A DNA stretch of 64,000 nucleotides from Massilibacillus massiliensis (GCF_900086705.1 NZ_LT575483.1:187166-251165); one strand, 5' to 3'; positions 13,940-50,130 are shown, counted from the stretch's first letter. Notes: a model not told the origin generated them from the letters alone. Made by a program: numbers and translations.

Positions 13940-13971
13940 AAAAACACCACACAATAAAATGATCTATTACG

Positions 13972-15030
13972 TTAAACCAGTTTTAAATCTTTTATATATT
14001 CTAATGCAATATCTTTTGTAATTAAATTCTTTTTTAATAGAATTTCAATTTCTCGATCAAAAATTTGCATACCTAATGAGGCCCCTGTTTGAATATGAGA
14101 TATTATTTGCTGCGTTTTCCCTTCCCTAATAATATTCCGAATTGCAGGTGTATTCATCATGATTTCAAATACCGCAATTCGACCTACACCACTTTTTTTA
14201 GGCAATAATTTTTGCGAAATAATTCCTTGCAAATTCATGGATAATTGTATACGTATTTGCTGTTGTTGCTGGCTGGGAAAAACATCAATAATTCTATCAA
14301 TTGTCTGTATTGAATCAGGTGTATGTAAGCTTGCAAAAACCAAATGGCCTGTTTCAGCCGCAGTAATTGCAATTGATATCGTTTCAAAATCTCTCATTTC
14401 ACCAATAAATATCAAATCCGGGTCTTCTCGTAGTGCGGCCCTCAATGCACTGTGAAAAGATTTTGAATCTATATAAATTTCACGTTGATTCACTATACTT
14501 TTTTTATGTTTATGTACATATTCAATAGGATCCTCCATTGTAATAATATGCAAGGCTTTCGATTGATTAATAAAATCAATCATAGCCGCAATTGTAGTTG
14601 ATTTTCCAGAACCTGCTGAACCGGTAAATAACACTAGTCCATTCTTTTTTAACGCTAGTGATTTTAATGTAGAAGCGCAATCTAATTCTTCCAAGGTTGG
14701 AATTTGATCGCTGATAATCCTCATTACAATGGCTATTGCGCCTCTTTGTTTAAAAACATTTACCCTAAATCGTCCACATGTATCTGAAGAATAGGAAAAA
14801 TCAACCTCTCCGTCCTCTTTAAGGTTATATTGCTGTGTTTTTGATGAAATAGATTCAAATAGACTTTTGGTATCTTCTGCTGTTAAAATGTTGAGTTTAG
14901 AAAATATTAGCCCTCCATCAATTCTAAAGGCCGGTGGTATTCCAACCGTCATATGCAAATCAGAAGCTTTTTTCTGGATTGCTTCTTTGAGTAAAATATC
15001 TATATATTTATTCTCATAAACTATCTTCAT
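13972..15030 (-). CDS. pilT: twitching motility ATPase PilT
   Basis: 352 residues. The retraction ATPase: the N-terminal domain begins ILLKEAIQKKASDLHMTVG, with Walker A GSAGSGKST, Walker B region EDPDLIFIGEMRD, a His box (GHLVFASLHT) and the PilT-specific C-terminal AIRNIIREGKTQQI. The start overlaps the end of the extension ATPase gene by 17 bases. Its presence means that the pilus is retractile. Confidence 0.93.
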   Translation of the reverse strand: MKIVYENKYIDILLKEAIQKKASDLHMTVGIPPAFRIDGGLIFSKLNILTAEDTKSLFESISSKTQQYNLKEDGEVDFSYSSDTCGRFRVNVFKQRGAIAIVMRIISDQIPTLEELDCASTLKSLALKKNGLVLFTGSAGSGKSTTIAAMIDFINQSKALHIITMEDPIEYVHKHKKSIVNQREIYIDSKSFHSALRAALREDPDLIFIGEMRDFETISIAITAAETGHLVFASLHTPDSIQTIDRIIDVFPSQQQQQIRIQLSMNLQGIISQKLLPKKSGVGRIAVFEIMMNTPAIRNIIREGKTQQIISHIQTGASLGMQIFDREIEILLKKNLITKDIALEYIKDLKLV

Positions 15031-16213
15031 ATGCTAACCTCAGTATTTCTTGTATTGTTGTCTGCCCAGTGAGAACTTTTTGCATACCATCTTGCTGCAT
15101 ACTTACAAAACCTTCTTCAACCGCAAATTCCTTTAACTGTTCAGCCGAAACTTGTCTATTAATACCGTTCCGTATTTTCTTTGTCATCGGCAACACTTCA
15201 TGAATCGCTGTTTGTCCATAATAACCTGTAAAATTGCAATCACAGCAACCACGCCCTTTATATAGAACAGTATTTGGATTCTTTATATATGGCTCTAATG
15301 TTTCTCTATCTTCTACGCTTTCATCTAACTTATAACTTATTTTGCATTTTGGACAAATCAATCGAACTAAACGTTGTGCAACAATTCCTAGAATAGATGA
15401 GGAAACTAAAAATGGCTCAATTCCGATATCAACCAATCGTGTTATTGCACCAATTGCATGATTGGTATGCAATGTGCTAAAAACTAAATGCCCAGTTTGT
15501 GCAGCATGAATAGCGATTCTTGCTGTTTCACGATCACGAATCTCTCCAATCATAATTATATTGGGGTCTTGTCGCAGAACAGATCGTAATGTTTTCGAAA
15601 AAGATAAATCTATTTTAGAATTTATTTGTATTTGGTTTATTCCGTCGAGTCGATACTCTACCGGATTTTCAATTGTAACAATATTTTTACTTGGATCATT
15701 CAATTCCGATAATGTTCCATAAAGCGTCGTAGTTTTCCCGGATCCAGTCGGTCCTGTATTTAAAATCATGCCGTAAGGCTTTTTATACAGGGATACATAT
15801 TTTCTTAAATTTCCTTCTGAAAAGCCCATCTTTTGAATATCAACGAACCGTAAACTTTTATCTAATATACGAAGTACGATTTTTTCGCCTAAAATTGTAG
15901 GCATTGTAGATATTCTCAAATCAATTGCTCTGTCATCTTCTTTGTATATAATTCTTCCATCCTGAGGTAATCTCTTTTCGGCAATATCAAGTTCACCCAT
16001 GATTTTTAATCGCGAAATAAATGGCAAGTGAAGTTTTAATGGAAAAGACGAAACTTCTCTCAACGCTCCATCAACACGAAAACGAATCCTTAAATACTGG
16101 TCCGTTGGTTCAATATGAATATCACTTGCTCGCGTACAGATCGCTTTTTTTATCATCTCATCAACAATCTCAATAATTGATCTATCATTAACGATTCTTT
16201 GATCTATCATCAT
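15014..16213 (-). CDS. type IV pilus extension ATPase, GspE/PilB family, short form
   Basis: 399 residues, about 150 fewer than usual PilB because the N-terminal MshEN/GSPII domain is absent. It starts directly in the linker (RASDIHIEPTDQYLRIRFRVDG). Walker A GPTGSGKTTTLYG, the Asp box and Walker B (DPNIIMIGEIRD), the His box (GHLVFSTLHTN) and the tetracysteine zinc element (CPKC, CCDC) are all present. The zinc element separates it from PilT. The lost domain often binds c-di-GMP, so regulation may differ. Confidence 0.88.
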   Translation of the reverse strand: MMIDQRIVNDRSIIEIVDEMIKKAICTRASDIHIEPTDQYLRIRFRVDGALREVSSFPLKLHLPFISRLKIMGELDIAEKRLPQDGRIIYKEDDRAIDLRISTMPTILGEKIVLRILDKSLRFVDIQKMGFSEGNLRKYVSLYKKPYGMILNTGPTGSGKTTTLYGTLSELNDPSKNIVTIENPVEYRLDGINQIQINSKIDLSFSKTLRSVLRQDPNIIMIGEIRDRETARIAIHAAQTGHLVFSTLHTNHAIGAITRLVDIGIEPFLVSSSILGIVAQRLVRLICPKCKISYKLDESVEDRETLEPYIKNPNTVLYKGRGCCDCNFTGYYGQTAIHEVLPMTKKIRNGINRQVSAEQLKEFAVEEGFVSMQQDGMQKVLTGQTTIQEILRLAYEDSL

Positions 16214-24232: not shown

Positions 24233-25066
24233 TTAGACAACTTTTTTAAGGGTATTTATTCTATACTTCACCGGTGTTAGATATCCTAGTGAAGAATGAA
24301 TCCTATGATTGTTGAACCAATTTACATAATCAGCTAACTCAATCTGCAGATGGTTTAAGCTGTGAAAAGTCTGGTTCCTGATAAATTCTGTTTTGATTAT
24401 TTTAAATGTTGCTTCTGCCACTGCATTATCATAAGGACACCCTTTATGACTGAGAGAACGCTGAATTTCAAATGCTTCCAAGATTTCTTCAATGGTCCGA
24501 TTTTTAAATTCGTTGCCACGGTCCGTGTGAAATATCTGGATATCTTTCAGATTTCCCCTTACAGTCTGAAATGCCTGTTTTACAAGGTCTGCTGTTTTAT
24601 TACGTCCGGCACTGTAACCAATTATTTCTCTATTAAAGAGGTCAATAAGCACACAAATGTAGTTCCAGCTCATGCCGACTCTGACATATGTTAAATCGCT
24701 TACAATAGCATTTCTATATGGTTGTTCACTGAACTGGCGGTCAACAACATTTTTGGTTTTTGATTCATTACAAGTATCCTTTTGAGGACGGAACTGGGCA
24801 GTCGTATAACTTGAAATCAGTCCTTCCTGCCTCATGATTCTGCCGATGCGGCGGCGTGAAGCAATGATATTTCTATCTTTTAAATCTGATTTTATTTTTC
24901 GGGTTCCATAATTATTTCGGCTTGCTTTAAATATATCAACAATATTTGCCACCAGCTTAGATTCATCTGGATTTGCTTTTGCCTCATAATAATAGGTGCT
25001 TCTTGGAATTTGTAGGACTTTACACATTGCTGATACAGAGTATTTGTGGATATTGGCTTTAATCAC
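24233..25066 (-). CDS. IS3-family transposase OrfB (DDE integrase)
   Basis: 277 residues. HTH_21-type N terminus (CKVLQIPRSTYYY), then an integrase core with the catalytic triad Asp (SDLTYV), Asp (FHTDRGNEF) and Glu (NAVAEATFKIIKTE), and the C-terminal NNHRIHSSLGYLTPVKY. The GTG start is next to the OrfA stop; in this family OrfAB is often made by frameshifting, but no classic A6G slip site is obvious here. Confidence 0.93.
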   Translation of the reverse strand: MIKANIHKYSVSAMCKVLQIPRSTYYYEAKANPDESKLVANIVDIFKASRNNYGTRKIKSDLKDRNIIASRRRIGRIMRQEGLISSYTTAQFRPQKDTCNESKTKNVVDRQFSEQPYRNAIVSDLTYVRVGMSWNYICVLIDLFNREIIGYSAGRNKTADLVKQAFQTVRGNLKDIQIFHTDRGNEFKNRTIEEILEAFEIQRSLSHKGCPYDNAVAEATFKIIKTEFIRNQTFHSLNHLQIELADYVNWFNNHRIHSSLGYLTPVKYRINTLKKVV

Positions 25067-30443: not shown

Positions 30444-33400
30444 CTATCTTACTTTACTCAGCGCATCTTGTGCTAAACGTAGTTGCCGTCTATTTAATTC
30501 ATTTACTTTCTCTTTATCTCCATCTTGGACAGCTTTTCTCTCCCATTTATTTAGATTTTGCATAATTTTATTTGCCGCTTTTAATCTGTTGTAGTTACGT
30601 AAATCATCACTACTCGGTCTTTCTTTGGCGATCTTAGCCCCATTATAGACTTTCTCTGACTCATTCAACTTTTCATAGAAATCTTGAATAGATTGAGGAC
30701 TTTTTAATGGATCAACGACAAACGCTTTACTGAATGGATTTTGATATTCTCTCTTCCCCATGAGCGCATCAGCAGCATTCAGTGTCTGATTTGCCATACC
30801 GGCGCCATACCCAGAGATAAGATTATCTATTTTTCTTGGCGATAAATCAAAATGTTTTCCAATGATTTTTGCAAGTTCAGAGGTATTCGGACCAAATTGC
30901 ATAGCATCAGGAAGTTTTTGCTCTTTTTGTGGAACAATATCCCGCCCTGAAAAAAATGAATAATTTGTAACCCATTCAAGCAAAGGTGCTGCTGCAGTTG
31001 GCATGAAGTTAGGAACAAATGCATCCTTAGCAGCTACTGCCCATTTTTTCATTGCATCCGGCCGTTTATCTATCATCCAGTCAAGAGTTCTTTCTGGTAA
31101 GGATCCAAACACAACACCTAACCCAAAAGGTTTTGGAATTCTACAAACAGTATCCCCAGCTTTAAAAATCCAAAATAAATTTTTCTGATAATCCGGCAAT
31201 TCTTTATACCATTCTTGATCATGATTCATAGTCCACAAAACAACAGACGGTAATGTTATATATAAGCCGATTCTTGCACTTGTCCCTGCCGGGTCCTCTT
31301 TAAAAGCCTGTATGATTCTGGCTGGCTCCTGAACTCCTGCATTAAAAAAAGCCACGGCTTTATTAACAGTTTTACCATATACACCATGCTTGCTAAAATC
31401 AAGAGAGATATCTCTAGCAGATAAAGCCGCGTCTTCAATAGAAACGCCTTTGCTTTTAGCTCTGCTATATTCACCTAATCTTGTTGCTGTTTCTAATGCT
31501 TCGGAAAATCCTCTGAGCATCTGTACAGGATTATAATGGTGCCAGTAATGCGCCATATCTTTTTTATATAAACCTTTCAATGAACCTTGAATATAATTAC
31601 GATCAAGGCCTACCATTGTACTCATCAAAGCACCTGAAGCTTTGTACTCATGAAATAATTGGTCTTGTTTCGCCATGTGGAATAACCCAATTGCATGGTC
31701 GACAACTGGTCTAAATCCATAACGTGAAAATACAGCTGCACCAAAAGTATCACGCATAATATTTTTGATTGCGAAATCTGGCATAAGAGTTGCACCAGCA
31801 CGCAATAAACTAGCTGGCGGACCTAATAACTTTGTAATAATATTCGCACTATCTTTGTTAACGGACATAATCGCACGATAAACCTCTGGCGTAGTTTGAT
31901 ATACTTTCTTTTCACCATCTACCCATACAGAAAATGTACTATCTTTGGTTGCCGCGGTGCCATTTACTTCTTCTATTAATCTGCCAACTCGGTCACTTTC
32001 GGCAAGGCGTGTAAATGTTTGTCCAACTCTATTTCTTTCCACAAGATTTAAAAGTGCATATGTATTCTTAACCATGCTTTCTAACGGACTTACAACCTGT
32101 CTTGTAGAACCTGCTTCTGAAATAGATTTTAAAGCACTTCTCACATTTCCAAAACTGCTTCCCATTCCAAAACCTTTTTCTATTCCAGCTTCATCGGCAA
32201 AATCTCTAGCCATTGGAACATAGTTTTTATATTTCTTTACAAGTGCATCATAAACAACCTTCTTAACCATTCCCGAATGCATTAAAATACGCAATATATT
32301 ATCGTTATATTTATATATTTTCTGTGCTGCCTCATGAAGTTCCTTAGGAGCGTTGTTAATAATCTTTTCTGCATCTTTCATATCAATCGGAGTTTTATAT
32401 TGCTTATTTTTCGCCTGTTCCAATTCTGATAACGTAGAATTTAATTCGCGCTTTGCTTGTTCTTCGAGTTCTTTGAATTTAGTTACAGCTGAATTTTTTT
32501 CAAAAATATTAGGATGATTTTGAGAAGTTTCTACTTTTAGACGTTCCTTTCTAGCTTCTACTAATTTTCGTTTTGCCTGCTCAACAGCTTCTTGGGCTTT
32601 CAAAGTAACATCTAAAACATTCACTTTATGCAATTCTATTTGTCTTCGCGCAACCAACAGTGAATCAAGTGCTTCATGCCAGTTTTTAAAATTGCCAGCT
32701 TTAAGATAATCTTTCGATTTTCCTTTCATAGCGTTATCTAAAGCAGATAAGGTACCTTTAATTGTTACAGCTTCATTAATTATATTGCCATAGATATTAT
32801 TTAGTGATTTTTTAACTAATTCAGGACGATCACTTTCAACAAGCATCTGTGCTCTTGCAACTGATGAATTTTGTGCTAATCTTGCCATCTTATAAGGATC
32901 ATCTTTCGTAACAAGTTTTTCACCGGTGGCACGTTCATAACTTTCAGTAACAGTTTTTAATCCGACTTTATCATCGATCCAATCCTCAACAAACTTGATT
33001 TTACCTTTTTCTATACGCTCTTTTATTGTTGGTTTCATTTCATCAGCATAAGATATACCACTGCGACCACGAGCTTCAGCAGATTGCTTATTCCATACAT
33101 TGATCATTGATTTTATTTCATTTACTCTTGCGTAAACATCTGGATTTTTAGCAATAGCTTCTTTGAATTTTTGATAATATTGGGGGAATTCAGCTTTAGC
33201 TATAGTTTCATTTGTTAAATAATCCTTCATAAATTCCGCAATGCCCTCAGCCCTGACTTGTTCCGGTGCATATGTACCTTCTCCAAAACGCTTATTTACA
33301 ATGCGTACAAATTCTCTATCATATAAACCAGCATTACTACGCAAACCGAGTGCTGCATCTGTAATATGCCCAATTTCATGCGCCATCGTGTTAAGATCTC

Positions 33401-36122
33401 CATAATCACGAGTTCGGACAACACCAGTATTATGATCAGCAAAGCCTTGTACGTCCTTTGCACCAATGCGCCCACTTCTAACAGGAACAAATAGTTCACC
33501 TGCCCTTTTAATAATTTGCTTCTTTGTAACCGTATCCCCTTCATAGTTGCCTTTAGGCTTCCCCTCTAATCGTGGAGCAATTGGCACTTGACCACCATTT
33601 GTATCAGCAAGTGATTTATAAGCACTGGCCCAATCTTCAGCACCTGCTTGTTTTGCCAACTCATATGCTTTTTGATAATCGCCATTATTCACAGCTTCAT
33701 ACGCCTTATCTAAAAGACCATCACGCATATTTTCAAGAATAGAAAAACCGCCTGGTTTGCCAGACGGTGAAAGCGAGTATTCTTTGCCATTGAATAATTT
33801 TTGATTTTGAGGTATATTATTAATATCAGTGGAAGAAGTCTGACTGCGTACGGGTAGTAAAGCGGAATCCGTTTTTTGCGGTAATCCGTTTGAATCGAAC
33901 GTTGGAACGTTACCGGATTCCGGTACGGATCGCGCAGGAGGCTTCTTCCACATTGATTTTATACGAAGAACTTTTCTTCCTGTTAAAATAACTTCTAAGT
34001 ATTCGTTTGTACCATCAGCGAATCCCTTTTTATAAATTACAGACTTAACACCGCCTCTTTCCTCACCAGGAAAAATTTCATCATATTGCTTTACAATTTC
34101 AGGTATTCTCTTAATATCATGATCTGTAATTGCTACTTGACCCCAATTCTTATGTTCAATAGCAGGGTCGCCATGTTCCATAAGCGCATGTCTTATATTA
34201 TCACTTGTTATGTTATGCTTGTAACCAGTAACATCAATTCCAGTAAGTTCTTTTATTCTTTTAATCTCACGTGGTTCTACTTCTCTGATATTCATCCAAG
34301 AATAATCTTTACTAGAAATAGCTTTATCAACAAAGTCATTAATTCTTTGCTGGACTAACCCATCTTCAACTCCAGAAACTAATTGTTGTTTAATTTCATC
34401 TACACTAAGCCCCTCGGTCACATCAGCCGTAGGAGCTTTTTTTATACCCGTATCCTCGGAAACTAAAGATTCATTTTCAGGTATAAGTTTTTTTGAGTTC
34501 TCTATTCCGGTTACTTCATCTTTATAACGTCCAAATATATCAGACTCCCCAAGAGCTGATATATTTGTTTTGTCCTGTGGTAAATCATATGACATATCTT
34601 CCACTGGATTTCTAGGTATATCTACCGAATCAAAAGATGTATCTTCAATCCGCGGCGCTCTCTGCCTGCTGCCACCTACAGATGCTTTACCTTCTAAAGC
34701 ATTTTTCAAGCCGTTTACATATACATTCAGATTATCAGTAAAATATCCTCCACGTTTTAATGCAGCAGCAAATTCATCAATATTTTTCGCATCAAACAAT
34801 CCATCTTCTCTATATGCTTCTAAGTTTCTTGCGGCATAATTTGCATATTCAGCATCAGAATCAAAATGTCTGTAATAGCCGCCATCCGGTGCTTTTGGAT
34901 CTATTCCCGGTCTTGGATTCGTCGCTTTAATACCAGCATAATTGTGATCTTCTCTGGCTAACGCACTACCGAAACCACCCGTCTCATGATTCATTTGCGC
35001 CCAAATCCAATCAGACGGCAATCCAGTGCGCTCAGCAATTAATGTTGCAACAGATCCACCTTCTCGGCCGTTTATATCCAAGCTACCTTCTGATACATTA
35101 TCAAGAATCTTTTCGTTCATAGAAGCATCAGGAAGTGAATCAATAAATTCATTTGAATACTTAGGTTCTGATGCCTTTAAAGGTTCTGCTTCGGGCAATG
35201 AATCAGATATATCTACATTTTCACCATACTTTTTATCATAAAGAGCTTTTCCTCCTTTAGCTACGCTATGCCCAACTGCGCCAGGTAAAAAAACATCTGT
35301 AAAAATTCTAGATGGATCGTCAACTATATTTTGAGCAAATTGTTTAGGATCTTCGTAAAGTCTTTTGACTGGATCCACAACAGGATCTACAAGTGTATCA
35401 TAAAGTGTTTTCTTTGTTGCACTTGCAAGGGATGGCTCACTACCGTCAACCGGATTCATATTATCAGCAAGAGATTCAGTCATATCCTTTGCCATGAAAG
35501 GCAAGAATAAAGCTCCTGCTACACCACGAACAGGAGCTGGTACAAACGGGGTTACGGCTATTTTACCTGCAGGATTCCCAACCGTATCATATAACGTATT
35601 ATATTCATCTGTTATGCGTTCAGGATTTGAAACACTATCATTAGAATATTGCTGTCCTACTTGATCACGGGCATAATAAGGATCAAGCCCAGGAACAGCA
35701 ACATCACCAACTTTATTTTGAAGTTCTTCGTTTCCTGATTGCAATTTTGAAAAATCATCTACAACTTTATCTTTATATTGGCTTAATTGCTCAGCTGTAT
35801 TTAGCACAAATTTATTTATGTTTGCCACTGAATTAGGATCATAATTTACATTGCGATCGACATAAGGCAAATTATTTTGATCATGAGCATAAAACGGATC
35901 AGCACCAGGTAAATTCTGTAGCGCCTGGCTGGGGTCACCTTGGCTTGGAGTAAAGAATTTCCCTACACCATTCTTTACATCTTCCCACAATGAAGTCTCT
36001 GGTATCCGAGGATCATCATAACTTATGGCTCTAGCTTGATTTAAGATATCATCAGGATCATCATCTATTATTTTTCTCCCCGTCGCTACATTTAAAATTT
36101 CATTAGGATCTTCGTTTATCAT
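30444..36122 (-). CDS. giant polyvalent ejection/internal virion protein
   Basis: 1,892 residues, the largest gene. Domains seen in order: a glucosaminidase/lysozyme-like domain near 350-480 (GLPSDWIWAQMNHETGGFGS, then REDHNYAGIKATNP); a nuclease-like domain near 620-735 of the PBECR type (NITSDNIRHALMEHGDPAIE, then RKVLRIKSMW); a zinc metallopeptidase near 860-1000 (LNTMAHEIGHITDAALG); a coiled coil near 1180-1260; and a large C-terminal domain from about 1450 with MPDFAIKNIMRDTFGAAVF, resembling LPD38 of polyvalent proteins. Polyvalent proteins are packed in the capsid and injected with DNA; lytic, nuclease and protease activities would act on cell wall and host defences. Domain names come from memory of the families. 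Confidence 0.75.
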   Translation of the reverse strand: MINEDPNEILNVATGRKIIDDDPDDILNQARAISYDDPRIPETSLWEDVKNGVGKFFTPSQGDPSQALQNLPGADPFYAHDQNNLPYVDRNVNYDPNSVANINKFVLNTAEQLSQYKDKVVDDFSKLQSGNEELQNKVGDVAVPGLDPYYARDQVGQQYSNDSVSNPERITDEYNTLYDTVGNPAGKIAVTPFVPAPVRGVAGALFLPFMAKDMTESLADNMNPVDGSEPSLASATKKTLYDTLVDPVVDPVKRLYEDPKQFAQNIVDDPSRIFTDVFLPGAVGHSVAKGGKALYDKKYGENVDISDSLPEAEPLKASEPKYSNEFIDSLPDASMNEKILDNVSEGSLDINGREGGSVATLIAERTGLPSDWIWAQMNHETGGFGSALAREDHNYAGIKATNPRPGIDPKAPDGGYYRHFDSDAEYANYAARNLEAYREDGLFDAKNIDEFAAALKRGGYFTDNLNVYVNGLKNALEGKASVGGSRQRAPRIEDTSFDSVDIPRNPVEDMSYDLPQDKTNISALGESDIFGRYKDEVTGIENSKKLIPENESLVSEDTGIKKAPTADVTEGLSVDEIKQQLVSGVEDGLVQQRINDFVDKAISSKDYSWMNIREVEPREIKRIKELTGIDVTGYKHNITSDNIRHALMEHGDPAIEHKNWGQVAITDHDIKRIPEIVKQYDEIFPGEERGGVKSVIYKKGFADGTNEYLEVILTGRKVLRIKSMWKKPPARSVPESGNVPTFDSNGLPQKTDSALLPVRSQTSSTDINNIPQNQKLFNGKEYSLSPSGKPGGFSILENMRDGLLDKAYEAVNNGDYQKAYELAKQAGAEDWASAYKSLADTNGGQVPIAPRLEGKPKGNYEGDTVTKKQIIKRAGELFVPVRSGRIGAKDVQGFADHNTGVVRTRDYGDLNTMAHEIGHITDAALGLRSNAGLYDREFVRIVNKRFGEGTYAPEQVRAEGIAEFMKDYLTNETIAKAEFPQYYQKFKEAIAKNPDVYARVNEIKSMINVWNKQSAEARGRSGISYADEMKPTIKERIEKGKIKFVEDWIDDKVGLKTVTESYERATGEKLVTKDDPYKMARLAQNSSVARAQMLVESDRPELVKKSLNNIYGNIINEAVTIKGTLSALDNAMKGKSKDYLKAGNFKNWHEALDSLLVARRQIELHKVNVLDVTLKAQEAVEQAKRKLVEARKERLKVETSQNHPNIFEKNSAVTKFKELEEQAKRELNSTLSELEQAKNKQYKTPIDMKDAEKIINNAPKELHEAAQKIYKYNDNILRILMHSGMVKKVVYDALVKKYKNYVPMARDFADEAGIEKGFGMGSSFGNVRSALKSISEAGSTRQVVSPLESMVKNTYALLNLVERNRVGQTFTRLAESDRVGRLIEEVNGTAATKDSTFSVWVDGEKKVYQTTPEVYRAIMSVNKDSANIITKLLGPPASLLRAGATLMPDFAIKNIMRDTFGAAVFSRYGFRPVVDHAIGLFHMAKQDQLFHEYKASGALMSTMVGLDRNYIQGSLKGLYKKDMAHYWHHYNPVQMLRGFSEALETATRLGEYSRAKSKGVSIEDAALSARDISLDFSKHGVYGKTVNKAVAFFNAGVQEPARIIQAFKEDPAGTSARIGLYITLPSVVLWTMNHDQEWYKELPDYQKNLFWIFKAGDTVCRIPKPFGLGVVFGSLPERTLDWMIDKRPDAMKKWAVAAKDAFVPNFMPTAAAPLLEWVTNYSFFSGRDIVPQKEQKLPDAMQFGPNTSELAKIIGKHFDLSPRKIDNLISGYGAGMANQTLNAADALMGKREYQNPFSKAFVVDPLKSPQSIQDFYEKLNESEKVYNGAKIAKERPSSDDLRNYNRLKAANKIMQNLNKWERKAVQDGDKEKVNELNRRQLRLAQDALSKVR

Positions 36123-37616: not shown

Positions 37617-38786
37617 TCAGTCACCAAACCCCTCTACCGCAATTTCATTGGCAAAGAAAATATTTCGGTCAGAAACAACAAAGTCATATACAAGATCTTG
37701 CCTTCCCGTATTCTCAACTTTTATAACTTTAACTTTTTTACCTTTAATATTGATTGCCGGCTTTTCCATTCTGCCTACATACTCAAACCAAGGAGAAGTA
37801 TAGAATCGCTGTGACTCAGTTGTTTCAATAACTGTACCATTTTCAAATATAATTCTAAGAATGTCACTCATATGTGCAGGTAGAACTTCAATGACTGTTT
37901 TCTCGCAAGGCAAATCATTATCATCAAGTGAATAAACCAAATCTCCTATATGAACATCACGAATATCTTTTTCACCATCTATTGTCTTTATTTTTGTTCC
38001 ACCAACAAAACATGCTATCATTGCAGAACCAAGAGATCCAACTGCGCCCCATGCAGATGCACCACCGTCATTTGAGGTTTGCGTAGTTGATCCAGTACCC
38101 ATACGACCACCATACATTGTGTTATACATGTTTTGTGAGGGAGTAGATAATTGAGAGGAATAAGATAAGAGTGCAGAAGGTTTATAATAAGAACTCTGCT
38201 CGGCTGCAGCATTATTACTTAACAAATTTCCTGCATTCCCAGCTTGCTGATTCAATATATTAGCGTACGTATTTAAGTCATTTGTATAATTATCTGCCAA
38301 GGTATTTGATACATTTTGACCAATGTTATTGAGTGCGTTGTTTGTCACGCTGCTGTTTAATATTCCACGACTACCTAAATTTGAAATCGCATTCCCTACA
38401 CTGGCATTCATATCATTGGTTAGTGCTTGTTGTCTAGCATTTGCGTATGAACTTGGCAAATTTCCATTGGCAAGATCATTATAACCAGAAGACACATTAT
38501 TCATGGTATCGTTATATGATTTGGACAATGAGTTCCAATCCGTGTTTACTGTATTACCAATTGCATTTATACCATTATTTAAAATGTTGCTGGCGTTGTT
38601 TAAGCCCGTAGTATTATACTTCATTAAACCATTTTCTAAGGTCGCTTCATTCTGCGTTTGAGCCGGAATGCTTCGCGTAGTAGTAGATGAACTTCCTTTA
38701 CCTTTGAAATGTACATGTTTCCCTGCTCCACTGGATACCCTGCTTAAATCAGTTTCTGTCCATACTTCTTTTCCTCGCATTACCAT
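37617..38786 (-). CDS. virion protein with C-terminal Hint (intein-like) domain
   Basis: 389 residues. The first 255 are low-complexity helical, rich in N, S, A and G (YANARQQALTNDMNASVGNA), like ejection proteins. From Cys259 a Hint domain runs to the end: ACFVGGTKIKTIDGEKDIRD, then VHIGDLVYSLDD, a block B region ETTESQRFYTSPWFEYVG and the last strand RNIFFANEIAVEGFGD. Cys259 would be the residue for N-terminal thioester formation and cleavage. The block B His is Gln here (TESQ instead of TxxH) and the C-terminal His-Asn of inteins is absent, so splicing is unlikely; autocleavage or none is possible. Confidence 0.8.
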   Translation of the reverse strand: MVMRGKEVWTETDLSRVSSGAGKHVHFKGKGSSSTTTRSIPAQTQNEATLENGLMKYNTTGLNNASNILNNGINAIGNTVNTDWNSLSKSYNDTMNNVSSGYNDLANGNLPSSYANARQQALTNDMNASVGNAISNLGSRGILNSSVTNNALNNIGQNVSNTLADNYTNDLNTYANILNQQAGNAGNLLSNNAAAEQSSYYKPSALLSYSSQLSTPSQNMYNTMYGGRMGTGSTTQTSNDGGASAWGAVGSLGSAMIACFVGGTKIKTIDGEKDIRDVHIGDLVYSLDDNDLPCEKTVIEVLPAHMSDILRIIFENGTVIETTESQRFYTSPWFEYVGRMEKPAINIKGKKVKVIKVENTGRQDLVYDFVVSDRNIFFANEIAVEGFGD

Positions 38787-42697: not shown

Positions 42698-43699
42698 TTA
42701 GTCAGCAATAGCGGAAGTTAAAAGTTGTACAGTTGCAAAATCTGTTTCGTTAAATACCGCTTTTTCAACACCTAAAATTGTATCAACTTCAAAACCGACT
42801 CTTTTATTATAATTGAATTTCTTTTCTTCCCAGTTGGCTTCTTGTGCAACGGCCATAGCTGCCGCTTGTGCGCCTAGTAATAATGAATGCCCAACCGGAG
42901 TTCCATTAGCGCCCGTTTTAGTGATTGCAATGTTTTCATGTTCATGAATAACAATGTCATCATAGATACCTAACGCACCAGAGAAAATCGGATTTTCACT
43001 ACCACGAACACCGGCATTTTCTTGCGCACTAATCCAAACTGGATCGTTTTTCAAGTCACGAGACTGATACGGATGAATAATCATTACCCAATGTTTTTTA
43101 CCATTCACCATGACAGGACGGATCTTAGGATTAGACAATTGAGCAAGACGTTTCGCCTTACCTATCATTGCAGCACTAAACACATCGCCAGCAACAACTG
43201 CGCCTTCTGCTGTTTTACCACCAGCCAAAAGTAGTCTATCTGTTGTAGGATCTTTCGTTAATGCTGCAAAAATCATAGCATCTAACTTTTCTTGCAGCCA
43301 TGTCTGTAGACCAGTTTTGGCAGCCTTTCTTAAATCAATTTGCGTTTTTTGTTCTTCGAATTTCCCTTTTAGCCGAACGGCATGTGCAATTTCATGAACT
43401 TCAACCATAAAATCATGGAATCGTAATTCTTCTTCGTTGCCTTCCACATCAGCATCATCATATACACCTTCACCTGTAAGTTTTAATAGTAAAGGTATAA
43501 TGATCCTGTCTCCAGCTTCTTTCTTTAAATTGGTCAGTTTGTGAATAATGAATTCAGGTCCCTCACCCATGAACTTATTGAAGTAAAGTTCTTTCATTGC
43601 GGCAGTCCATAAATCTTTTGCCCAGGCTTTCTGGATTAAAGAAACTGGTACTGTTGTATCTTTAAAAAGTTGTAAATCGATTTTATAAGCAAGATTCAT
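42698..43699 (-). CDS. major capsid protein, N4-gp56 family
   Basis: 333 residues. Signatures of the N4-gp56 family: VSLIQKAWAKDLWTAAMKEL, then FMGEGPEFIIHKLTNLKKEAG, GDRIIIPLLLKL, HDFMVEVHEIAHAVRLKG and the DDIVIHEH region. The first residues MNLAYKIDLQLF resemble the Prp cleavage motif of bL27 (LNLQFF) and of phage 80alpha capsid; cleavage after Phe12 is predicted, by the Prp-type protease encoded at 48059-48358. Confidence 0.92.
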   Translation of the reverse strand: MNLAYKIDLQLFKDTTVPVSLIQKAWAKDLWTAAMKELYFNKFMGEGPEFIIHKLTNLKKEAGDRIIIPLLLKLTGEGVYDDADVEGNEEELRFHDFMVEVHEIAHAVRLKGKFEEQKTQIDLRKAAKTGLQTWLQEKLDAMIFAALTKDPTTDRLLLAGGKTAEGAVVAGDVFSAAMIGKAKRLAQLSNPKIRPVMVNGKKHWVMIIHPYQSRDLKNDPVWISAQENAGVRGSENPIFSGALGIYDDIVIHEHENIAITKTGANGTPVGHSLLLGAQAAAMAVAQEANWEEKKFNYNKRVGFEVDTILGVEKAVFNETDFATVQLLTSAIAD

Positions 43700-43728
43700 T
43701 TAATATCTATCCTTTCGAATAGAAGGCA

Positions 43729-44925
43729 TTATTTTAGCCCTAAAGCTAAGTCTCGAATATCTTTCGGCAAGTCTTCCCAATTAGTTTCTTGAATCATGCG
43801 TTCAAGATCGGCAATACTTGTACCGCCTTGGGAATTTGCCCCCGATATCTGGCTGACTTTAGGGTGTGCCTCCATTTGTTTAATTTTTTCTTTTGTTTTC
43901 TCTATTTTGTCGACAGGTTGTATAACTGGTTGAACTATCGGAACTTCAGCTGCTGCCTTATCATTACTTTGTTTTTCTCTAAATTTTTGTTGTGCATTTA
44001 TGAAATGATTTTTAACAATCAAAATATCCTGCAGGCTACCTTGCCCTGATTCAGTACGCGAAAAAGCTTCACTTACGGCACGCTGCTCAATCGGTTGCAA
44101 TGAAGAAAAAGCTTCAGTGCAAGCATATTGATAAACATCATTAAAATCGTTTTGTCCTCTTAGGTCATTGACCAAACGATTATATTCATAATTTACTTGC
44201 TGTTGGTCTTGCTGCTTTTGTACATATTCGCGCTGTTGGCGTTCAACCAGGTTGTTTGCTTCCTGTGTTAATCTAACAAGCTCGATGTTATATGCAGCTT
44301 CCCATTCTCTCTTTTTTACCGGATCGGCATAATCAATAGAATTAATGTCTTCATCCGATAAACCAAGATTCTTTTTGGCTCTCTCATATGCAGTTGTCGC
44401 AACCTGCCTAAACAAAGTTTGATCAACTTCTGGCGACTGATTTAAATTGTTATTTGTAACTTGTTGATATGGTGGTTGCTGTACTTGATTTGCAGGCGGC
44501 TGTTGAGGGACCGCTATATTTTGCTGTGCTCTCAATGCATTTAACTCTGCCTGAAGTTTAGCCAGTTCTGCATCCTTTGCTTTTGCTTTGTCGTTGACTT
44601 CCTTAAAACGTTTATACGGGATATGTGCTGGTTCCTGGCCTTCTTCTGCTGATTCTTGATTTTCGGGTTCAACTGTTTCATCATCTACTTGTTTGGTATC
44701 GGTGTCAGCTTCACCGTTTGATGCAGCAGTACCCTCCGTTGATTCTTCTGATTCTTGAACTTCTTCAGTAGTCTGTTCTTCAGATTCAACAGTTTCAGGC
44801 TCATTATTCAATCCAGCTTCTTTCAAAATTGAAAGTGCAATATCTTTATCAACACCTTCTAATTCCGCTGGTATTTCTGGTTCATTATCCGAAAATAGTT
44901 TTAAATCAATAAGCATATTTTGCAT
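43729..44925 (-). CDS. phage scaffold protein
   Basis: 398 residues. Acidic, Q-rich and coiled (HIPYKRFKEVNDKAKAKDAEL, KREWEAAYNIELVRLTQEA), the usual nature of scaffolds, and placed directly upstream of the capsid gene. The start MQNMLIDLKLFSD contains an IDLKLF motif that matches the capsid start and fits Prp cleavage after Phe11. GGAG stands eight bases before the ATG. Confidence 0.82.
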   Translation of the reverse strand: MQNMLIDLKLFSDNEPEIPAELEGVDKDIALSILKEAGLNNEPETVESEEQTTEEVQESEESTEGTAASNGEADTDTKQVDDETVEPENQESAEEGQEPAHIPYKRFKEVNDKAKAKDAELAKLQAELNALRAQQNIAVPQQPPANQVQQPPYQQVTNNNLNQSPEVDQTLFRQVATTAYERAKKNLGLSDEDINSIDYADPVKKREWEAAYNIELVRLTQEANNLVERQQREYVQKQQDQQQVNYEYNRLVNDLRGQNDFNDVYQYACTEAFSSLQPIEQRAVSEAFSRTESGQGSLQDILIVKNHFINAQQKFREKQSNDKAAAEVPIVQPVIQPVDKIEKTKEKIKQMEAHPKVSQISGANSQGGTSIADLERMIQETNWEDLPKDIRDLALGLK

Positions 44926-44989
44926 TTTATATTCTCCTCTTTAACGTCCTTAGACGAATATTACGACCTTATCGTTGTCGGCACGAAAT

Positions 44990-45023
44990 AGAAAAGCACC
45001 TTACTTTAAAAAGCAGGGTGCTT
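44990..45023 (-). terminator. terminator between small acidic gene and scaffold
   Basis: On the minus strand AAGCACCC and GGTGCTT pair around about 15 bases and are followed by TTCTATTT. The stem overlaps the stop codon of gene 45022-45348. Confidence 0.7.
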
Positions 45024-45348
45024 ATTGAGATTCGTATTTTTTTGAAACTTCTTGATACAAGCTATTTAAACATTCGATTGTGCTCACTTCATGCTGATTC
45101 ATCGGAATGGATTGATTTAAAAGATTGTCAGCACTTTTTAAACCTAACTGAATCAGAGTTTTTCTAAATTGAATTAACTCTTCCTCTACCTCATCAGGTA
45201 ATGATTCTTGCTCTACAGCTTCTTCTTTTACTTCTTCAGGAACAACATCTTCTACTTTCTCAGGCTCATTATTTATGTTTTCCTTCGGTTGTTCAGGTTC
45301 AGTTGGAATCAATGTTTCCTCAACTTTGGTTGTTTTTGCTCTTGCCAT
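45022..45348 (-). CDS. small acidic phage protein between portal and scaffold
   Basis: 108 residues. The N-terminal two thirds are highly acidic and rich in E, P and V (EPEKVEDVVPEEVKEEAVEQ); the rest is helical (EELIQFRKTLIQLGLKSADN). GGAGGTGAGAAC is directly before the ATG. May be a portal-associated or head assembly factor; not recognised. Confidence 0.55.
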   Translation of the reverse strand: MARAKTTKVEETLIPTEPEQPKENINNEPEKVEDVVPEEVKEEAVEQESLPDEVEEELIQFRKTLIQLGLKSADNLLNQSIPMNQHEVSTIECLNSLYQEVSKKYESQ

Positions 45349-45360
45349 GTTCTCACCTCC

Positions 45361-47490
45361 TTACATCGTGGCCGGCGCTTGTCCAGCCATTAAACTTTGC
45401 ATAGCCGCCTGTGTCATTTGTTGTGGCTGCGGCGTTAGACTCTCTCCACCTTGCCCCTGCATTGTTTGCAACTGCTGTGCTTGTTGTTGCGTAAGCATTT
45501 GCTGTTGCATTTCTGGCGGTAAATTGCCTTGCTGTTCCCCTTGCGCTAAATGCGGTAAATACATATCCATAAACTTTTTAAGTACTTCATCGGCAACTTG
45601 TTGTGGAAGTAAATTAGCTTTAGCTGCAAGCTGTAATTGAATAGGTAAAGGTAAATCCTTGTAATTAACTGTTTCATTAATCTTAGGCATTGCCTGTTGT
45701 GCTTGAGAAGCCTGTTGCTGTTGCTGCTCTTGCCTTTGGGTCCATCGCTGCTTAATTTCATCTTTGCTTGGAACATCTGATAAATCAAGCAAGATATCAA
45801 ATACCATATCCCCTGGAATACCTAATTTGCTTACTGCATCAACTAAGGACCAGAACTGGCTAATACGCTGTGTTGCCGTCGCAGGAGTATCAGCAATAAC
45901 AATATCAAATTCGCCTTGTGATAAATCATTCAGCGTAGTTTGAATTACACCCTTGATTGGATCATTGACAACTGCAGGTTGATTTACATTAATAAATTGC
46001 TGTTGCCCATTGGTCCCGACAATACGATAACATTTTGCATCGGTATAGTATTGTGGTATCAATCCTTTCCGCCCACGTTTCCCCCAAAGCAAATACGTAA
46101 TTTTCTTCTTGGCCTTACGTAAGTTATCAAAGAGTGGTGCAATTTGCGTAACAGCCTGCTTTTGTTTTAATTCAATAGCACGACCGGAAGAACTGGCCGG
46201 CATATCAGTCCCCATTAAAGCCTCATTGATTCCACTGATTGACGGTATATCTTGTTCAGCTTCAGCAACCGCTTGTAATAAATTGTTTGGCGGATTACTT
46301 GGTTGGATACGTTGTACCCTGCCACCAGTTAAGGCTCCAGGTGCAACTGTTATAATTGCACCCGGCATAGCACCAATATTGCGCACATTGTTTTCCTGCT
46401 CCGGTGTCATTGCACCTTCTTCTTTCATCCAACCGCTATTAGACTGGGTATTTAAAACATGCATGGACTGACTACGTCTCTTATTGATCTCACGTTGCGG
46501 ATCCTTTAAATCTCTAACAACACCAGCTGGCGTATCGTTTTCACCGTAATAATAAGTGACAAAAGGAACAAAAGGAATTTCGCCATGATCATATGGACTG
46601 TTGACATGCTCCAATTCAATTTCACCAAAGAATACACAAACACGAACCTTATCTACTGGAATTGTAATAGGTTTTATAATCGAACCATTTGCAAGCATTT
46701 CAATTTTAAATTCTTTCTTCGGGATTTTACTGCCATCGGCTAACAGATAGAAAGTTTCTCGTTTTCGCTCTTTATACCAGCATTCAACAAGGCGCAACTT
46801 CTTCGTATCCTTCTGATACCAAAGAGGCTCTAAACTTGCATACTCTTGCTCTTCTCTATCATACAAATCAGTCTGCGCTTCTATTTCTTCCGCATGTTCT
46901 TTGTAAATTAACTTTAATTCTTCTTTATCAACCCACTTTGCACGTATGATGAATTTAGCATCAGAAAAATCAATTTTTCTAGCTTCGGGATCCACATAAA
47001 TATTGAATGGACTTTCCCGAATTATTTTTACTTCGCCATCCATCGTGTCGTAATCCCAATCATAACGAACTTCGAACCAGCCTATTCCAGAGATAGCACC
47101 ATCTATAAACACTTGTGATTCGTTATATTCGTAATCACATTCATCCATAATGAACTTTGTAACCCCTTTACGGACATCACATAATTTCTGATCGTCAGGT
47201 GTACGAGGAAGAAAATCTATATCATAGCGATTAAGCCGCTGATAGCCAGATAGAACATTAATCTGTGGTTTGATTTTGTTAATCGTAATTGCTGGCCGTC
47301 CTTGTTCAGCTAGAGCTTCCTTATCCGCCTTACTCCATTGCCCTTGACCAGTTACAAAACTGTAATCTTCCCTTGCTTCTTTTCGCCAATCATTGCTTTT
47401 GTCTACTGCAGCTCTAAACCACTCTCGAAATTTTGTAAGATTTTGATTGCTTCCAATAACGGTTGTTGCTCCTACTGAAAAATAATCCAA
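45361..47490 (-). CDS. portal protein, P22-like
   Basis: 709 residues, close to the P22 portal (725). Contains TKFREWFRAAVDKSNDWRKE, QGRPAITINKIKPQINVLSG, NVLSGYQRLNRYDIDFLPR, RESPFNIYVDPEA and the helical PISGINEALMGTDMP stretch; these match P22-type portals (DUF4055/phage_P22_portal type). The last 130 residues are Gln-rich (QRQEQQQQQASQAQQAMPK; MQQQMLTQQQAQQLQTMQ), like the barrel of P22 portal. It starts with TTG behind GGAGGTGATATA. Confidence 0.88.
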   Translation of the reverse strand: MDYFSVGATTVIGSNQNLTKFREWFRAAVDKSNDWRKEAREDYSFVTGQGQWSKADKEALAEQGRPAITINKIKPQINVLSGYQRLNRYDIDFLPRTPDDQKLCDVRKGVTKFIMDECDYEYNESQVFIDGAISGIGWFEVRYDWDYDTMDGEVKIIRESPFNIYVDPEARKIDFSDAKFIIRAKWVDKEELKLIYKEHAEEIEAQTDLYDREEQEYASLEPLWYQKDTKKLRLVECWYKERKRETFYLLADGSKIPKKEFKIEMLANGSIIKPITIPVDKVRVCVFFGEIELEHVNSPYDHGEIPFVPFVTYYYGENDTPAGVVRDLKDPQREINKRRSQSMHVLNTQSNSGWMKEEGAMTPEQENNVRNIGAMPGAIITVAPGALTGGRVQRIQPSNPPNNLLQAVAEAEQDIPSISGINEALMGTDMPASSSGRAIELKQKQAVTQIAPLFDNLRKAKKKITYLLWGKRGRKGLIPQYYTDAKCYRIVGTNGQQQFINVNQPAVVNDPIKGVIQTTLNDLSQGEFDIVIADTPATATQRISQFWSLVDAVSKLGIPGDMVFDILLDLSDVPSKDEIKQRWTQRQEQQQQQASQAQQAMPKINETVNYKDLPLPIQLQLAAKANLLPQQVADEVLKKFMDMYLPHLAQGEQQGNLPPEMQQQMLTQQQAQQLQTMQGQGGESLTPQPQQMTQAAMQSLMAGQAPATM

Positions 47491-47514
47491 TATATCACCT
47501 CCTTAAAAAAGGGT

Positions 47515-47549
47515 ATAAAAATAGCGACTATGCTTAATTGCTAGTCGCT
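47515..47549 (-). terminator. terminator before the portal gene
   Basis: On the minus strand GCGACTA and TAGTCGC pair around 11 bases, followed by TATTTTTATA. It starts directly after the stop codon of the Tad2-domain gene. Confidence 0.75.
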
Positions 47550-47550
47550 T

Positions 47551-48033
47551 TTATTCTACGATCATCCAATCTTCTGCTAACATGTCAACTTGCGTTGCAT
47601 TCCAACCAATTGTAATAGTTCCATCAGCTGCTTTCATATCAATATGACTTTTAATTTCAATTGTTTGATCACATTCCAAAAGCCGTTCACCGAACAAAGC
47701 TTTAGATGTTTCTGGCTTTAAGTTAACAATCGGAACAATACTTCCACTTGTTAGATACAGAAACATACCTTTACCATTCCACCCTTTGCGGCAAACTCTA
47801 AAACCTTTCTTCAGAGCTTCCACAGCCAGTCCAAAGGTCATGCCATCAGTTTTACGATTGGCTTCTTCAAATATGCCTTTAGGGCTCCAAGATAAATAGC
47901 CATCTTCATACTTTACAAGATAACCTTCCTGATTTTGCGCTGATTGACTTATTTTCCTTTGTAATTTTTCTTCTGCTTCAAATAGATTCATAGGTTTAGC
48001 TTGAACTATTTTCACACCAATATACTTTTCCAT
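47551..48033 (-). CDS. Tad2-domain (DUF2829) protein, candidate anti-Thoeris factor
   Basis: 160 residues from the ATG at 48033. Residues 1-65 are a common phage N-terminal module (MEKYIGVKIVQAKPMNLFEA ... EGYLVKYEDGYLSWSPKGIF). Residues 66-160 are a Tad2/DUF2829 domain: MTFGLAVEALKKGFRVCRKG, GKGMFLYLTSGSIVP, then MKAADGTITIGWNATQVDML and AEDWMIVE. Tad2 proteins sequester the cyclic nucleotide-like signal of Thoeris. The fusion of the two modules and the place among head genes are notable. Function is inferred from the family. Confidence 0.72.
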   Translation of the reverse strand: MEKYIGVKIVQAKPMNLFEAEEKLQRKISQSAQNQEGYLVKYEDGYLSWSPKGIFEEANRKTDGMTFGLAVEALKKGFRVCRKGWNGKGMFLYLTSGSIVPIVNLKPETSKALFGERLLECDQTIEIKSHIDMKAADGTITIGWNATQVDMLAEDWMIVE

Positions 48034-48058
48034 CTCATTCATCCTTCTTTCATAAAAT

Positions 48059-48358
48059 TTAATAAAAACATTGTGGATACTGCTTTCTGATGTTATCCAA
48101 GCCGAGGAACGCAGCTTCAATTATGGCTTGTGTCACTTCGCTTTTTTGACATGTAAATGAGAAATGTCCTTTTTGGCAACACCTGATATTTGTATTTGCA
48201 TCATACTGCTGACACCCAAGCATTGCAGTTTGCACAATAGCAGATACTGCTGAACAAACAATATCATCACCCTTCTTTACATAGTTGGCATGTCCTCTAC
48301 TCCAGAGTCCAATACGATTTTTATCTTCAAAAGGTTTCATCTTTCCAAAACTAATCAA
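48059..48358 (-). CDS. prp: ribosomal-processing cysteine protease Prp homologue (phage morphogenetic protease)
   Basis: 99 residues from a TTG at 48358 (GGAG seven bases before, just after the terminase stop); an ATG at 48340 is an alternative. The catalytic His is in WSRGHANYVKKG and Cys in GDDIVCSAVSAIVQTAMLG; the C-terminal half ends QAIIEAAFLGLDNIRKQYP. Prp removes the N-terminal extension of bL27 in Firmicutes and, in staphylococcal phage 80alpha, cuts scaffold and capsid. Here the phage has its own copy in the position usual for head proteases, and capsid and scaffold start with matching motifs. Confidence 0.88.
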   Translation of the reverse strand: MISFGKMKPFEDKNRIGLWSRGHANYVKKGDDIVCSAVSAIVQTAMLGCQQYDANTNIRCCQKGHFSFTCQKSEVTQAIIEAAFLGLDNIRKQYPQCFY

Positions 48359-48368
48359 TTTACCACTC

Positions 48369-49754
48369 CTAAACCGCCCATGCAGATGGACGTTCCTTTT
48401 CTTTATATCTTGTTTTATCTGATTTTGATTTCTTAGGTGTATCTGGTGTCCAAGGGCGGGATAAGCAAGCGTATCCAAGTTCATCATAAGGATGATCTTC
48501 ACCAGTAGTATCAACTTTTTCAGGATGAATTTTATCATGTGTGAGCATTGGTATTGTTCTAATTGCATGATAACAGGTACTAAAAAAGCGTACAGCAGGT
48601 ATCTGTACGCCATCGGTGTTTGTATGACCAACTAATCTAAGTTTCACTTGTTCAGCCATTTGCTCTCGTCCTTTTTCACATTCCATGAAAGGTATCTTCT
48701 TATGCTTTATTAATGTATTGTTAATTTCCTCTGCAATACTAGGACCCGATGTACCAGTTCTAGCCCAACAAGCATTATCCAAAACACCATAAGATATATT
48801 ATCGTCTCTTTCATATGCTGCAATTTTCTCGGCAACTTGAATAGCTGTTTCTTTTGTACCAACATTCGGTTTACCCCCATAGCCATACAATTCACGATAT
48901 CGCCAAAGATTACCGTCATAATCAACTGCGTACCATCCAACTGAATAAGGATGATAACTCCCCCAGTCCATTGATCTAAAGCGCATCCATCCTTCTGGTA
49001 TCTTAAACGGTTGTACAACATGTAGTGAATCTCGCCACATAGAAAAGAATTGTCCTTCAGCAATACCCCACTCACCAAGTCCAGCAACTTTATAACGTCC
49101 AGGATCATTCTTTTTCATATCTTCAAATACTTGTTTGTCTGCTTCATCTAGAAATTCATTACAAAGATAATTCGTCGTTTTAGCCAATACATTTATATTT
49201 GGTTCATCAAAAAAACGTCTCTTAAGCCAATGTGAAGCCGACCAAGGATTAAAAGTAAGTGTGAATTGTTTAAAATAACCTTCTGGAACTTCACCACGTA
49301 TTGATTCATCAAGGCGATTAAATGTTTCTTCATCTTCTAATTCATACGCTTCTTCAATCCATGCCCAACATAAACAACCATACTCAACCGTTATAGAAGT
49401 AATCTTTAAAGGATCATCAAGACCACGAAAATATATTTTTTGGCCTGTTGGTTTATATGTGATTTCCAGCGGCGATTCTTTTACCTGCCAAAATTCATCT
49501 ACCTGCAATCTATGTATTGCCCATTTTAATTCAGTAAAACAACTATCCTTTAGCGTTCTAAACGTTCTACGCATGACAATGAGGTTAGCTAACGGATATT
49601 GCATCATTTTACTGATATACCAAAGCGCAGTAGTTTTTGATTTCTTACTTGCACGTGAACCTTTACAAACTCGATATCTACCGCGGAAATTCCAGTAGTC
49701 AGCATATCCTTTGCCGACTATTTGTTGTAATGATAACTTATTCTTCGATGTCAT
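48369..49754 (-). CDS. terL: terminase large subunit
   Basis: 461 residues from the ATG at 49754, overlapping the small subunit by 17 bases. ATPase domain: GSRASKKSKTTALWYI (P-loop-like), coupling region MRRTFRTLKDS, Walker B CLCWAWIEEAYEL (IEE); nuclease domain from about 260 with DWGSYHPYSVGW and a late Asp in DHPYDELGYAC. It resembles PBSX-type terminases. It cuts and packages DNA into the head. Confidence 0.92.
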   Translation of the reverse strand: MTSKNKLSLQQIVGKGYADYWNFRGRYRVCKGSRASKKSKTTALWYISKMMQYPLANLIVMRRTFRTLKDSCFTELKWAIHRLQVDEFWQVKESPLEITYKPTGQKIYFRGLDDPLKITSITVEYGCLCWAWIEEAYELEDEETFNRLDESIRGEVPEGYFKQFTLTFNPWSASHWLKRRFFDEPNINVLAKTTNYLCNEFLDEADKQVFEDMKKNDPGRYKVAGLGEWGIAEGQFFSMWRDSLHVVQPFKIPEGWMRFRSMDWGSYHPYSVGWYAVDYDGNLWRYRELYGYGGKPNVGTKETAIQVAEKIAAYERDDNISYGVLDNACWARTGTSGPSIAEEINNTLIKHKKIPFMECEKGREQMAEQVKLRLVGHTNTDGVQIPAVRFFSTCYHAIRTIPMLTHDKIHPEKVDTTGEDHPYDELGYACLSRPWTPDTPKKSKSDKTRYKEKERPSAWAV

Positions 49755-50130
49755 CTGCAATAACCACCGGGATCGCACCGTTGATTTCTTTCTTATCAAT
49801 AAACAGCGCATATCTTTTACCAAGAAGTTCAGCAGCTTTTGTTCGATCCGTTATTGTAGCATCTAAATCGAATTGATCTTTTTCTTCTCCGCGCATAACA
49901 CGAGTAAGGTACTGCAATACTTCTTCACCTTTTGCGATACGTTTGTCGGCTATTTGTTGTAGTCGCTCATCTATATATTGACGCAAGTAAGGTTTATTTA
50001 AGTTCTCATTGGCAATAACCTTTGCTGTCTTCTTACTGTAACCAGCTCTAATCGCCGCTTCTGTCCCATTTCCTAACTCTATATAATAATCAGCAAAAGC
50101 CTGCTGTTTAACCGTCATTTTTTTAACCAC
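49738..50130 (-). CDS. terS: terminase small subunit
   Basis: 130 residues from the GTG at 50130 (AGGTGG five bases before); the ATG at 50118 is also possible. Terminase_2 signature MTVKQQAFADYYIELGNGTE, then AAIRAGYSKKTAKVIANENL and RQYIDERLQQI: a helix-turn-helix DNA-recognition part followed by a coiled oligomerisation helix. It recognises the pac or cos site. Confidence 0.88.
   Translation of the reverse strand: MVKKMTVKQQAFADYYIELGNGTEAAIRAGYSKKTAKVIANENLNKPYLRQYIDERLQQIADKRIAKGEEVLQYLTRVMRGEEKDQFDLDATITDRTKAAELLGKRYALFIDKKEINGAIPVVIADDIEE

Follow-up and report, generated by a model that had tools for sequence, protein, structure and literature searches.

Prp is a cysteine protease that normally trims a ribosomal protein; ribosome assembly in Bacillota requires it, as is known from Staphylococcus aureus, and it is under discussion as an antibiotic target. 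The locus described here raises the question of whether a phage carries a Prp of its own for the maturation of its head. The DNA analysed (the window) is a stretch of 64,000 nucleotides, 187166-251165 of contig C6 of the 4.0 Mb genome of Massilibacillus massiliensis, and it contains a prophage. The head genes of this prophage, all on the minus strand, follow the order TerS, TerL, a 99-residue protein, a Tad2-like protein, a P22-type portal, a small acidic protein, a 398-residue putative scaffold, a Phage_capsid_3 capsid and an SU10-type adaptor (Table 1). The 398-residue protein has no family match in Pfam and PHROG profile searches, and its probable role as scaffold is deduced from its position and length. 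The prophage provides a testable case of probable co-evolution between a head-maturation enzyme and its targets. The answer proposed here is that the phage's own Prp very probably trims both its capsid and its scaffold, a proposal in which we infer the cleavage, its timing and its importance from the sequences.

Table 1. Features of the prophage head operon, with positions counted from the first letter of the window.
Feature	Coordinates	Strand	Evidence and remarks
Terminase large subunit	48369..49823	(-)	PF04466
Phage-encoded Prp cysteine protease, 99 aa, TTG start, His23/Cys35	48059..48358	(-)	PF04327, 61.7 bits; PHROG 4478; invariant active-site residues
Tad2-like gene in the interval between Prp and portal	47551..48120	(-)	PF11195, 85 bits; real start probably ~48049
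P22-type portal protein	45361..47490	(-)	PF16510, 496 bits
Putative scaffolding protein, 398 aa, N-terminus MQNMLIDLKLF-S	43729..44925	(-)	Lies between portal and capsid; homologues at the equivalent position
Scaffold Prp-type site IDLKLF	44893..44910	(-)	Sequence; predicted cut after Phe11; Lys at P3 atypical
Major capsid protein (Phage_capsid_3), N-terminal extension MNLAYKIDLQLF	42698..43699	(-)	PF13252, 162 bits; extension upstream of where extension-less relatives start
Capsid Prp-type site IDLQLF	43664..43681	(-)	Sequence; predicted cut after Phe12

The 99-residue protein is, by its sequence, a Prp-family cysteine protease, and it is predicted to be proteolytic. It matches the Pfam family Peptidase_Prp (PF04327) with 61.7 bits (8e-17) against a curated cut-off of 27, and it also matches PHROG 4478, described as 'peptidase'. 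Prp is the sole protease family matched in the Pfam and PHROG searches, in which the HK97-type and ClpP-like prohead protease families gave no match. The reading frame is open over 48059-48358 on the minus strand, with a TTG start at 48358 and an AGGAG at 48366-48370. The protein contains GHANY...DIVCSAVS, and when it is aligned with Prps of the host and of other phages the residues G22, H23, D32, C35 and S39 are invariant, their equivalents in the S. aureus enzyme (SaPrp) being G21, H22, D31, C34 and S38 (PMC9405229). The assignment to the Prp family with a catalytic His and Cys, made in the initial annotation, is thereby borne out by the profile search and by the invariant residues. A fold prediction from the single sequence was too poor for use (mean pLDDT 47), and a PDB sequence search with the phage Prp gave no match at E 0.01. 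Recent capture of the host gene is ruled out as an origin because the Prps of the window clade form a supported separate lineage, and this lineage is conserved in five phages.

The gene had been placed between terminase and portal; the interval is right, although a Tad2-like gene separates the Prp from the portal. In the window and in three related phages (L041, L048 and L107) the Prp gene belongs to the head operon, close to terminase and portal. The Tad2-like (Thoeris anti-defence) gene directly after the phage Prp within the head operon (47551-48120, minus strand) is an observation in its own right, and a Tad2-like homologue likewise follows the Prp in L187 (9326-9785).

The candidate targets are recognised at their N-termini, the capsid beginning with MNLAYKIDLQLF-K and the scaffold with MQNMLIDLKLF-S (a hyphen directly after the Phe of a site marks the predicted cut, here and below). 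Both carry the I-D-L-(Q/K)-L-F motifs originally pointed out, and these are the only two N-terminal Prp-type sites of the window: an unbiased scan over 229 stop-to-stop frames, each 60 codons or longer (896 candidate starts, any start counted), places the pattern [DNE][LI][QKR]xF within the first ~20 residues of no proteins other than capsid and scaffold. With a background expectation of ~0.003 per protein for an N-terminal site, the placement of two sites on scaffold and capsid is far beyond chance. Peptides spanning the phage sites are AYKIDLQLFKDTT and NMLIDLKLFSDNE, and the host bL27 peptide is FNFELQLFAHKKG. Judged against the Prp consensus, (D/N)LQ(F/L)F followed by a small residue, P1, P2, P4 and P5 fit in both sites, and the misfits are the Lys at P3 of the scaffold and the Lys at P1' of the capsid. 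The solved structure of the SaPrp complex shows the P3 Gln touching loop L2 (Gly29, Asp31), and P1' is restricted to small residues in known Prp substrates (PMC9405229). The capsid P1' Lys is odd because of this restriction, and it is the chief weak point of the cleavage claim. Aligned with extension-less relatives, the capsid shows an extension that ends where those relatives start (e.g. MALTTIP..., MAETVIPAAL...), and therefore a cut after the Phe would recreate that N-terminus. The mechanism proposed is that the phage Prp would recognise [I/V]-[D/N]-[L/I]-[Q/K]-L-F, use a Cys35/His23 dyad and remove residues 1-12 of the capsid, whose mature form would then begin KDTTVPVS, and residues 1-11 of the scaffold during head assembly.

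Relatives with the same capsid type were sought in 380 genomes of the class, with portal and capsid as queries, and in viral contigs. Four distinct phages have a Prp between terminase and portal, namely the window phage, L041, L048 (also found as L105/L116) and L107, and sites are present on both scaffold and capsid in 4/4; none of the three Prp-bearing relatives of the window phage has kept the protease and lost the motif. At least seven relatives without a Prp in the fetched stretch still carry capsid sites, absence of the enzyme not being proven for each contig as the terminase-portal stretch is missing in some, and the scaffolds of most relatives carry sites. A strict tie between capsid extension and phage Prp, seen in a portal-based set (3/3 versus 0/~15), is ruled out by these site-bearing relatives, which came from a capsid-based search. 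Sites alone thus need no phage enzyme, and the relatives without detected Prp presumably depend, by analogy with phage 80alpha, on the host Prp. A phylum-wide search did not find this capsid beyond the class in the sampled genomes, scans for close relatives with single proteins gave few or no matches, and the window-clade Prp alignment, run against genome contigs, produced a single match, partial and spurious. A small HExxH (metallopeptidase-like) protein is encoded in the head region of some relatives (L037 2324-2654, L038 4143-4473, L044 6691-7027), and in L037 and L038 it lies in the interval between terminase and portal, which is the place of the Prp in the window phage.

Some sites of the Prp-bearing relatives differ from the others at P3. 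Lys or Arg occupies this position in 3/8 sites of the Prp-bearing relatives (window scaffold, L048 scaffold and L107 capsid), against 0/25 sites in relatives without detected Prp and 0/25 bL27 variants, the site lists being transcribed from the separate surveys. The contrast gives a Fisher p of 0.010, or 0.0018 with bL27 included, and both values are optimistic because the rows share kinship. It is a hint that specificity may have been altered in the Prp-bearing relatives of the window.

The same genome encodes an ordinary host prp adjoining rpmA, and the host bL27 begins MSMFNFELQLF-AHKK, giving the site FELQLF-A for the comparison that had been called for. The DLQLF at P5-P1 of the window capsid is close to the ELQLF of host bL27. 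This resemblance, the host prp itself, the capsid sites in at least seven relatives without Prp in the fetched stretch and the dependence of 80alpha on host Prp (PMC5744158) would all suit a host Prp that cuts the phage sites, with the phage gene redundant or otherwise employed. Against it stand the Lys at P3 of the scaffold and the Lys at P1' of the capsid, as Lys is absent from both positions in all bL27 surveyed, and the separate lineage of the window-clade Prps, which makes the phage gene no recent host copy. The host Prp, which trims bL27, may also cut some phage sites, and a phage with its own enzyme could use a code unmatched by the host Prp, such as Lys or Arg at P3.

The most telling new evidence, a covariation of enzyme and site, comes from viral contigs (IMG/VR) scanned with the window-clade Prp alignment, at least 255 of which encode a relative; 80 were fetched. 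No rpmA-like gene was found in any of these 80 Prp-bearing contigs, and an N-terminal site is encoded in 69 of them, with 133 sites observed versus 6.6 expected. The site-bearing proteins are typically one of ~200 residues and one of ~320, as expected of scaffold and capsid. Loop L2, taken as the stretch from GH to the Asp preceding the catalytic Cys, usually has 8 residues. In 10 unique phages it has 7 residues and ends in PGN, and in 10/10 of these, at all 19 sites, P3 is Lys or Arg and P1' is Asp; the 19 sites cover both substrates and two unrelated capsid types. Where the loop has 8 residues and sites were detected, Gln is the sole P3 residue in 38/41 phages and P1' is for the most part Ala, Thr, Ser, Asn or Gly, the sites of this comparison having been collected by a regular expression with mechanical choice of starts, which leaves a few noise entries. 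The Prps of L253 and L269 are sisters (support 100/98 when the loop is left out), and the capsids of the two phages are 75% identical; L253 combines the loop AGFYPGN with the site KMDLRLF-D and L269 the loop AGYDKHGH with the site YKMDLQLF-A. Phylogenetically independent loop/site pairs number two on supported branches, both in agreement, and five on the best tree; the sign test is not significant, and the tree test is not statistically decisive because the supported branches give only two such pairs. In the window clade (the window and L187-L190) the loops have 7, 8 or 9 residues, and each phage with a readable scaffold or capsid has one substrate with Lys or Arg at P3. The loop of the window Prp itself is of ordinary length, with Gln at P3 of the capsid and Lys at P3 of the scaffold.

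That the loop predicts the residues around the scaffold and capsid cuts is what cutting by the phage enzyme would lead one to expect, and it suggests that phage Prps and their cut sites change together; in many phages other than that of the window, loop L2 and the P3 and P1' residues of both substrates would have changed jointly. We lean towards a wider interpretation, in which phage Prps would be widespread maturation proteases of heads, and sometimes tails, with L2 setting a private code. Loops of the PGN-D type would go with (N/D)L(R/K)xF-D, ordinary loops with (N/D)LQxF-A and very short loops perhaps with L(N/D)LF-(N/D), while the window lineage would be intermediate, with mixed Lys and Gln at P3. 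Such orthogonal pairs would free phages from the host Prp.

The very short L2 loops occur in viral contigs L275 and L285-L303 (e.g. GHAEGDTDQVC), together with capsids starting ...L(N/D)LF-(N/D). Their Prps possibly represent a third site code, with a loop like that of orf13 of Streptococcus phage Cp-1.

Cutting by the host enzyme instead of the phage enzyme is best regarded as unlikely, as the site code tracks the loop of the phage enzyme, not that of the host. The proposal that the phage brings its own enzyme for capsid and scaffold is supported by the profile match, by the presence of both sites in 4/4 phages and by the covariation of loop and site; it is tempered by the host Prp, by sites in relatives without detected Prp and by the capsid P1' Lys. 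In 80alpha the phage is viable with CP or SP cleavage blocked, and the scaffold N-terminus itself is required (PMC5744158), so that having the peptide may count for more than trimming it off. Laboratory E. coli reportedly leaves the 80alpha homologues uncut (PMC9405229). Action of the phage Prp mainly on another target, such as bL27 or a tail protein, with incidental motifs on capsid and scaffold, seems distinctly improbable: several Prp-bearing phages also carry sites on major tail proteins and host bL27 has a similar site, but both motifs lie exactly on scaffold and capsid, recur in every Prp-bearing relative with this capsid and covary with the enzyme elsewhere. A catalytically dead enzyme or vestigial gene, for which the unusable single-sequence fold model could be cited, can practically be dismissed, as the active-site residues, frame, start and ribosome-binding site are intact and the lineage is kept in five phages.

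The proposed cleavage by the phage's own Prp can be compared with known systems. The window enzyme shares with bacterial Prp (PF04327, MEROPS C108; S. aureus Prp) the family profile, the His/Asp/Cys/Ser positions, the P1 Phe and the general form of the predicted site, whereas its gene belongs to the head operon of a phage and does not lie between rplU and rpmA, its lineage is separate, and its predicted sites have the P3 Lys in the scaffold and the P1' Lys in the capsid. Phage 80alpha likewise has N-terminal Prp sites on scaffold and capsid; there the host enzyme is used, whereas the window phage has its own prp, a P22-like portal and a Phage_capsid_3 capsid. A parallel is given by phages with 'peptidase' Prps (phiFL3A, PLgT-1, TP712, BL3, phiS13 and phiS11; PHROG 4478), in which prp lies beside the head genes and scaffold and capsid carry N-terminal sites. 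The phiFL3A-type phages differ in having siphophage-type head genes, a Prp after the portal and Gln at P3 of all scaffold and capsid sites, and some isolated phages with a portal-adjacent 'peptidase' (the phiFL3A group and others) have an additional site on the major tail protein; no paper linking enzyme and sites of phiFL3A-type phages was found in the literature searched. Two records filed as phages (L072 and L074) are in fact host rplU-prp-rpmA DNA and were left out of the counts.

The maturation protease of Cp-1 (MEROPS clan CR) is also a phage-encoded distant Prp relative, reported to act as an endopeptidase on the major head protein, from which it takes off residues 1-48 (PMC12445089). 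Cp-1 orf13 matches the window-clade Prp profile at 1.5e-6 (Pfam 18.5 bits, under the cut-off) and is probably this endopeptidase. Cp-1 differs in its very short loop L2 and in its cut, which releases 48 residues and falls at a site lacking LQxF. Annotations of phage Prp genes close to head genes already exist ('peptidase', PHROG 4478), and the distant relative in Cp-1 is reported to cleave capsid, so that what is new is the general module and the covarying site code. A literature search found no paper on phage Prps paired with scaffold and capsid sites or on covariation of loop and site, the primary Prp papers lying outside its reach and a prior report being possible. If phages bring their own Prps with matched sites, Prp has a second and broad role in the building of virus heads. 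The covariation of L2 with P3 and P1' offers a direct handle on Prp specificity, which the single solved complex leaves open, and the natural enzyme-site pairs are testable with peptides.

Several other features of the prophage and its surroundings deserve mention. The window encodes a protein with a C-terminal Hint-like (intein/hedgehog-type) domain (37617-38786, minus strand; Hint_2 21.6 bits, under the cut-off). Its homologue in the viral relative L004 (13172-14908) is by eye without the Hint-like stretch and starts with a Prp-type site, FDLQRF-GG; the terminase large subunit of L004 (1988-3808) seems to bear an intein (CFIAGTLVTTKRG ... VHNC). A polyvalent virion protein of 1892 residues (30444-36122, minus strand) combines glucosaminidase, PBECR3 nuclease-like and LPD38 domains. 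An IS3-type transposase (rve, HTH_21) lies near the lysis end of the prophage (24233-25066, minus strand), and T2SSF and T2SSE (type II secretion/pilus) genes at 12722-16213 (minus strand) are apparently host DNA flanking the prophage.
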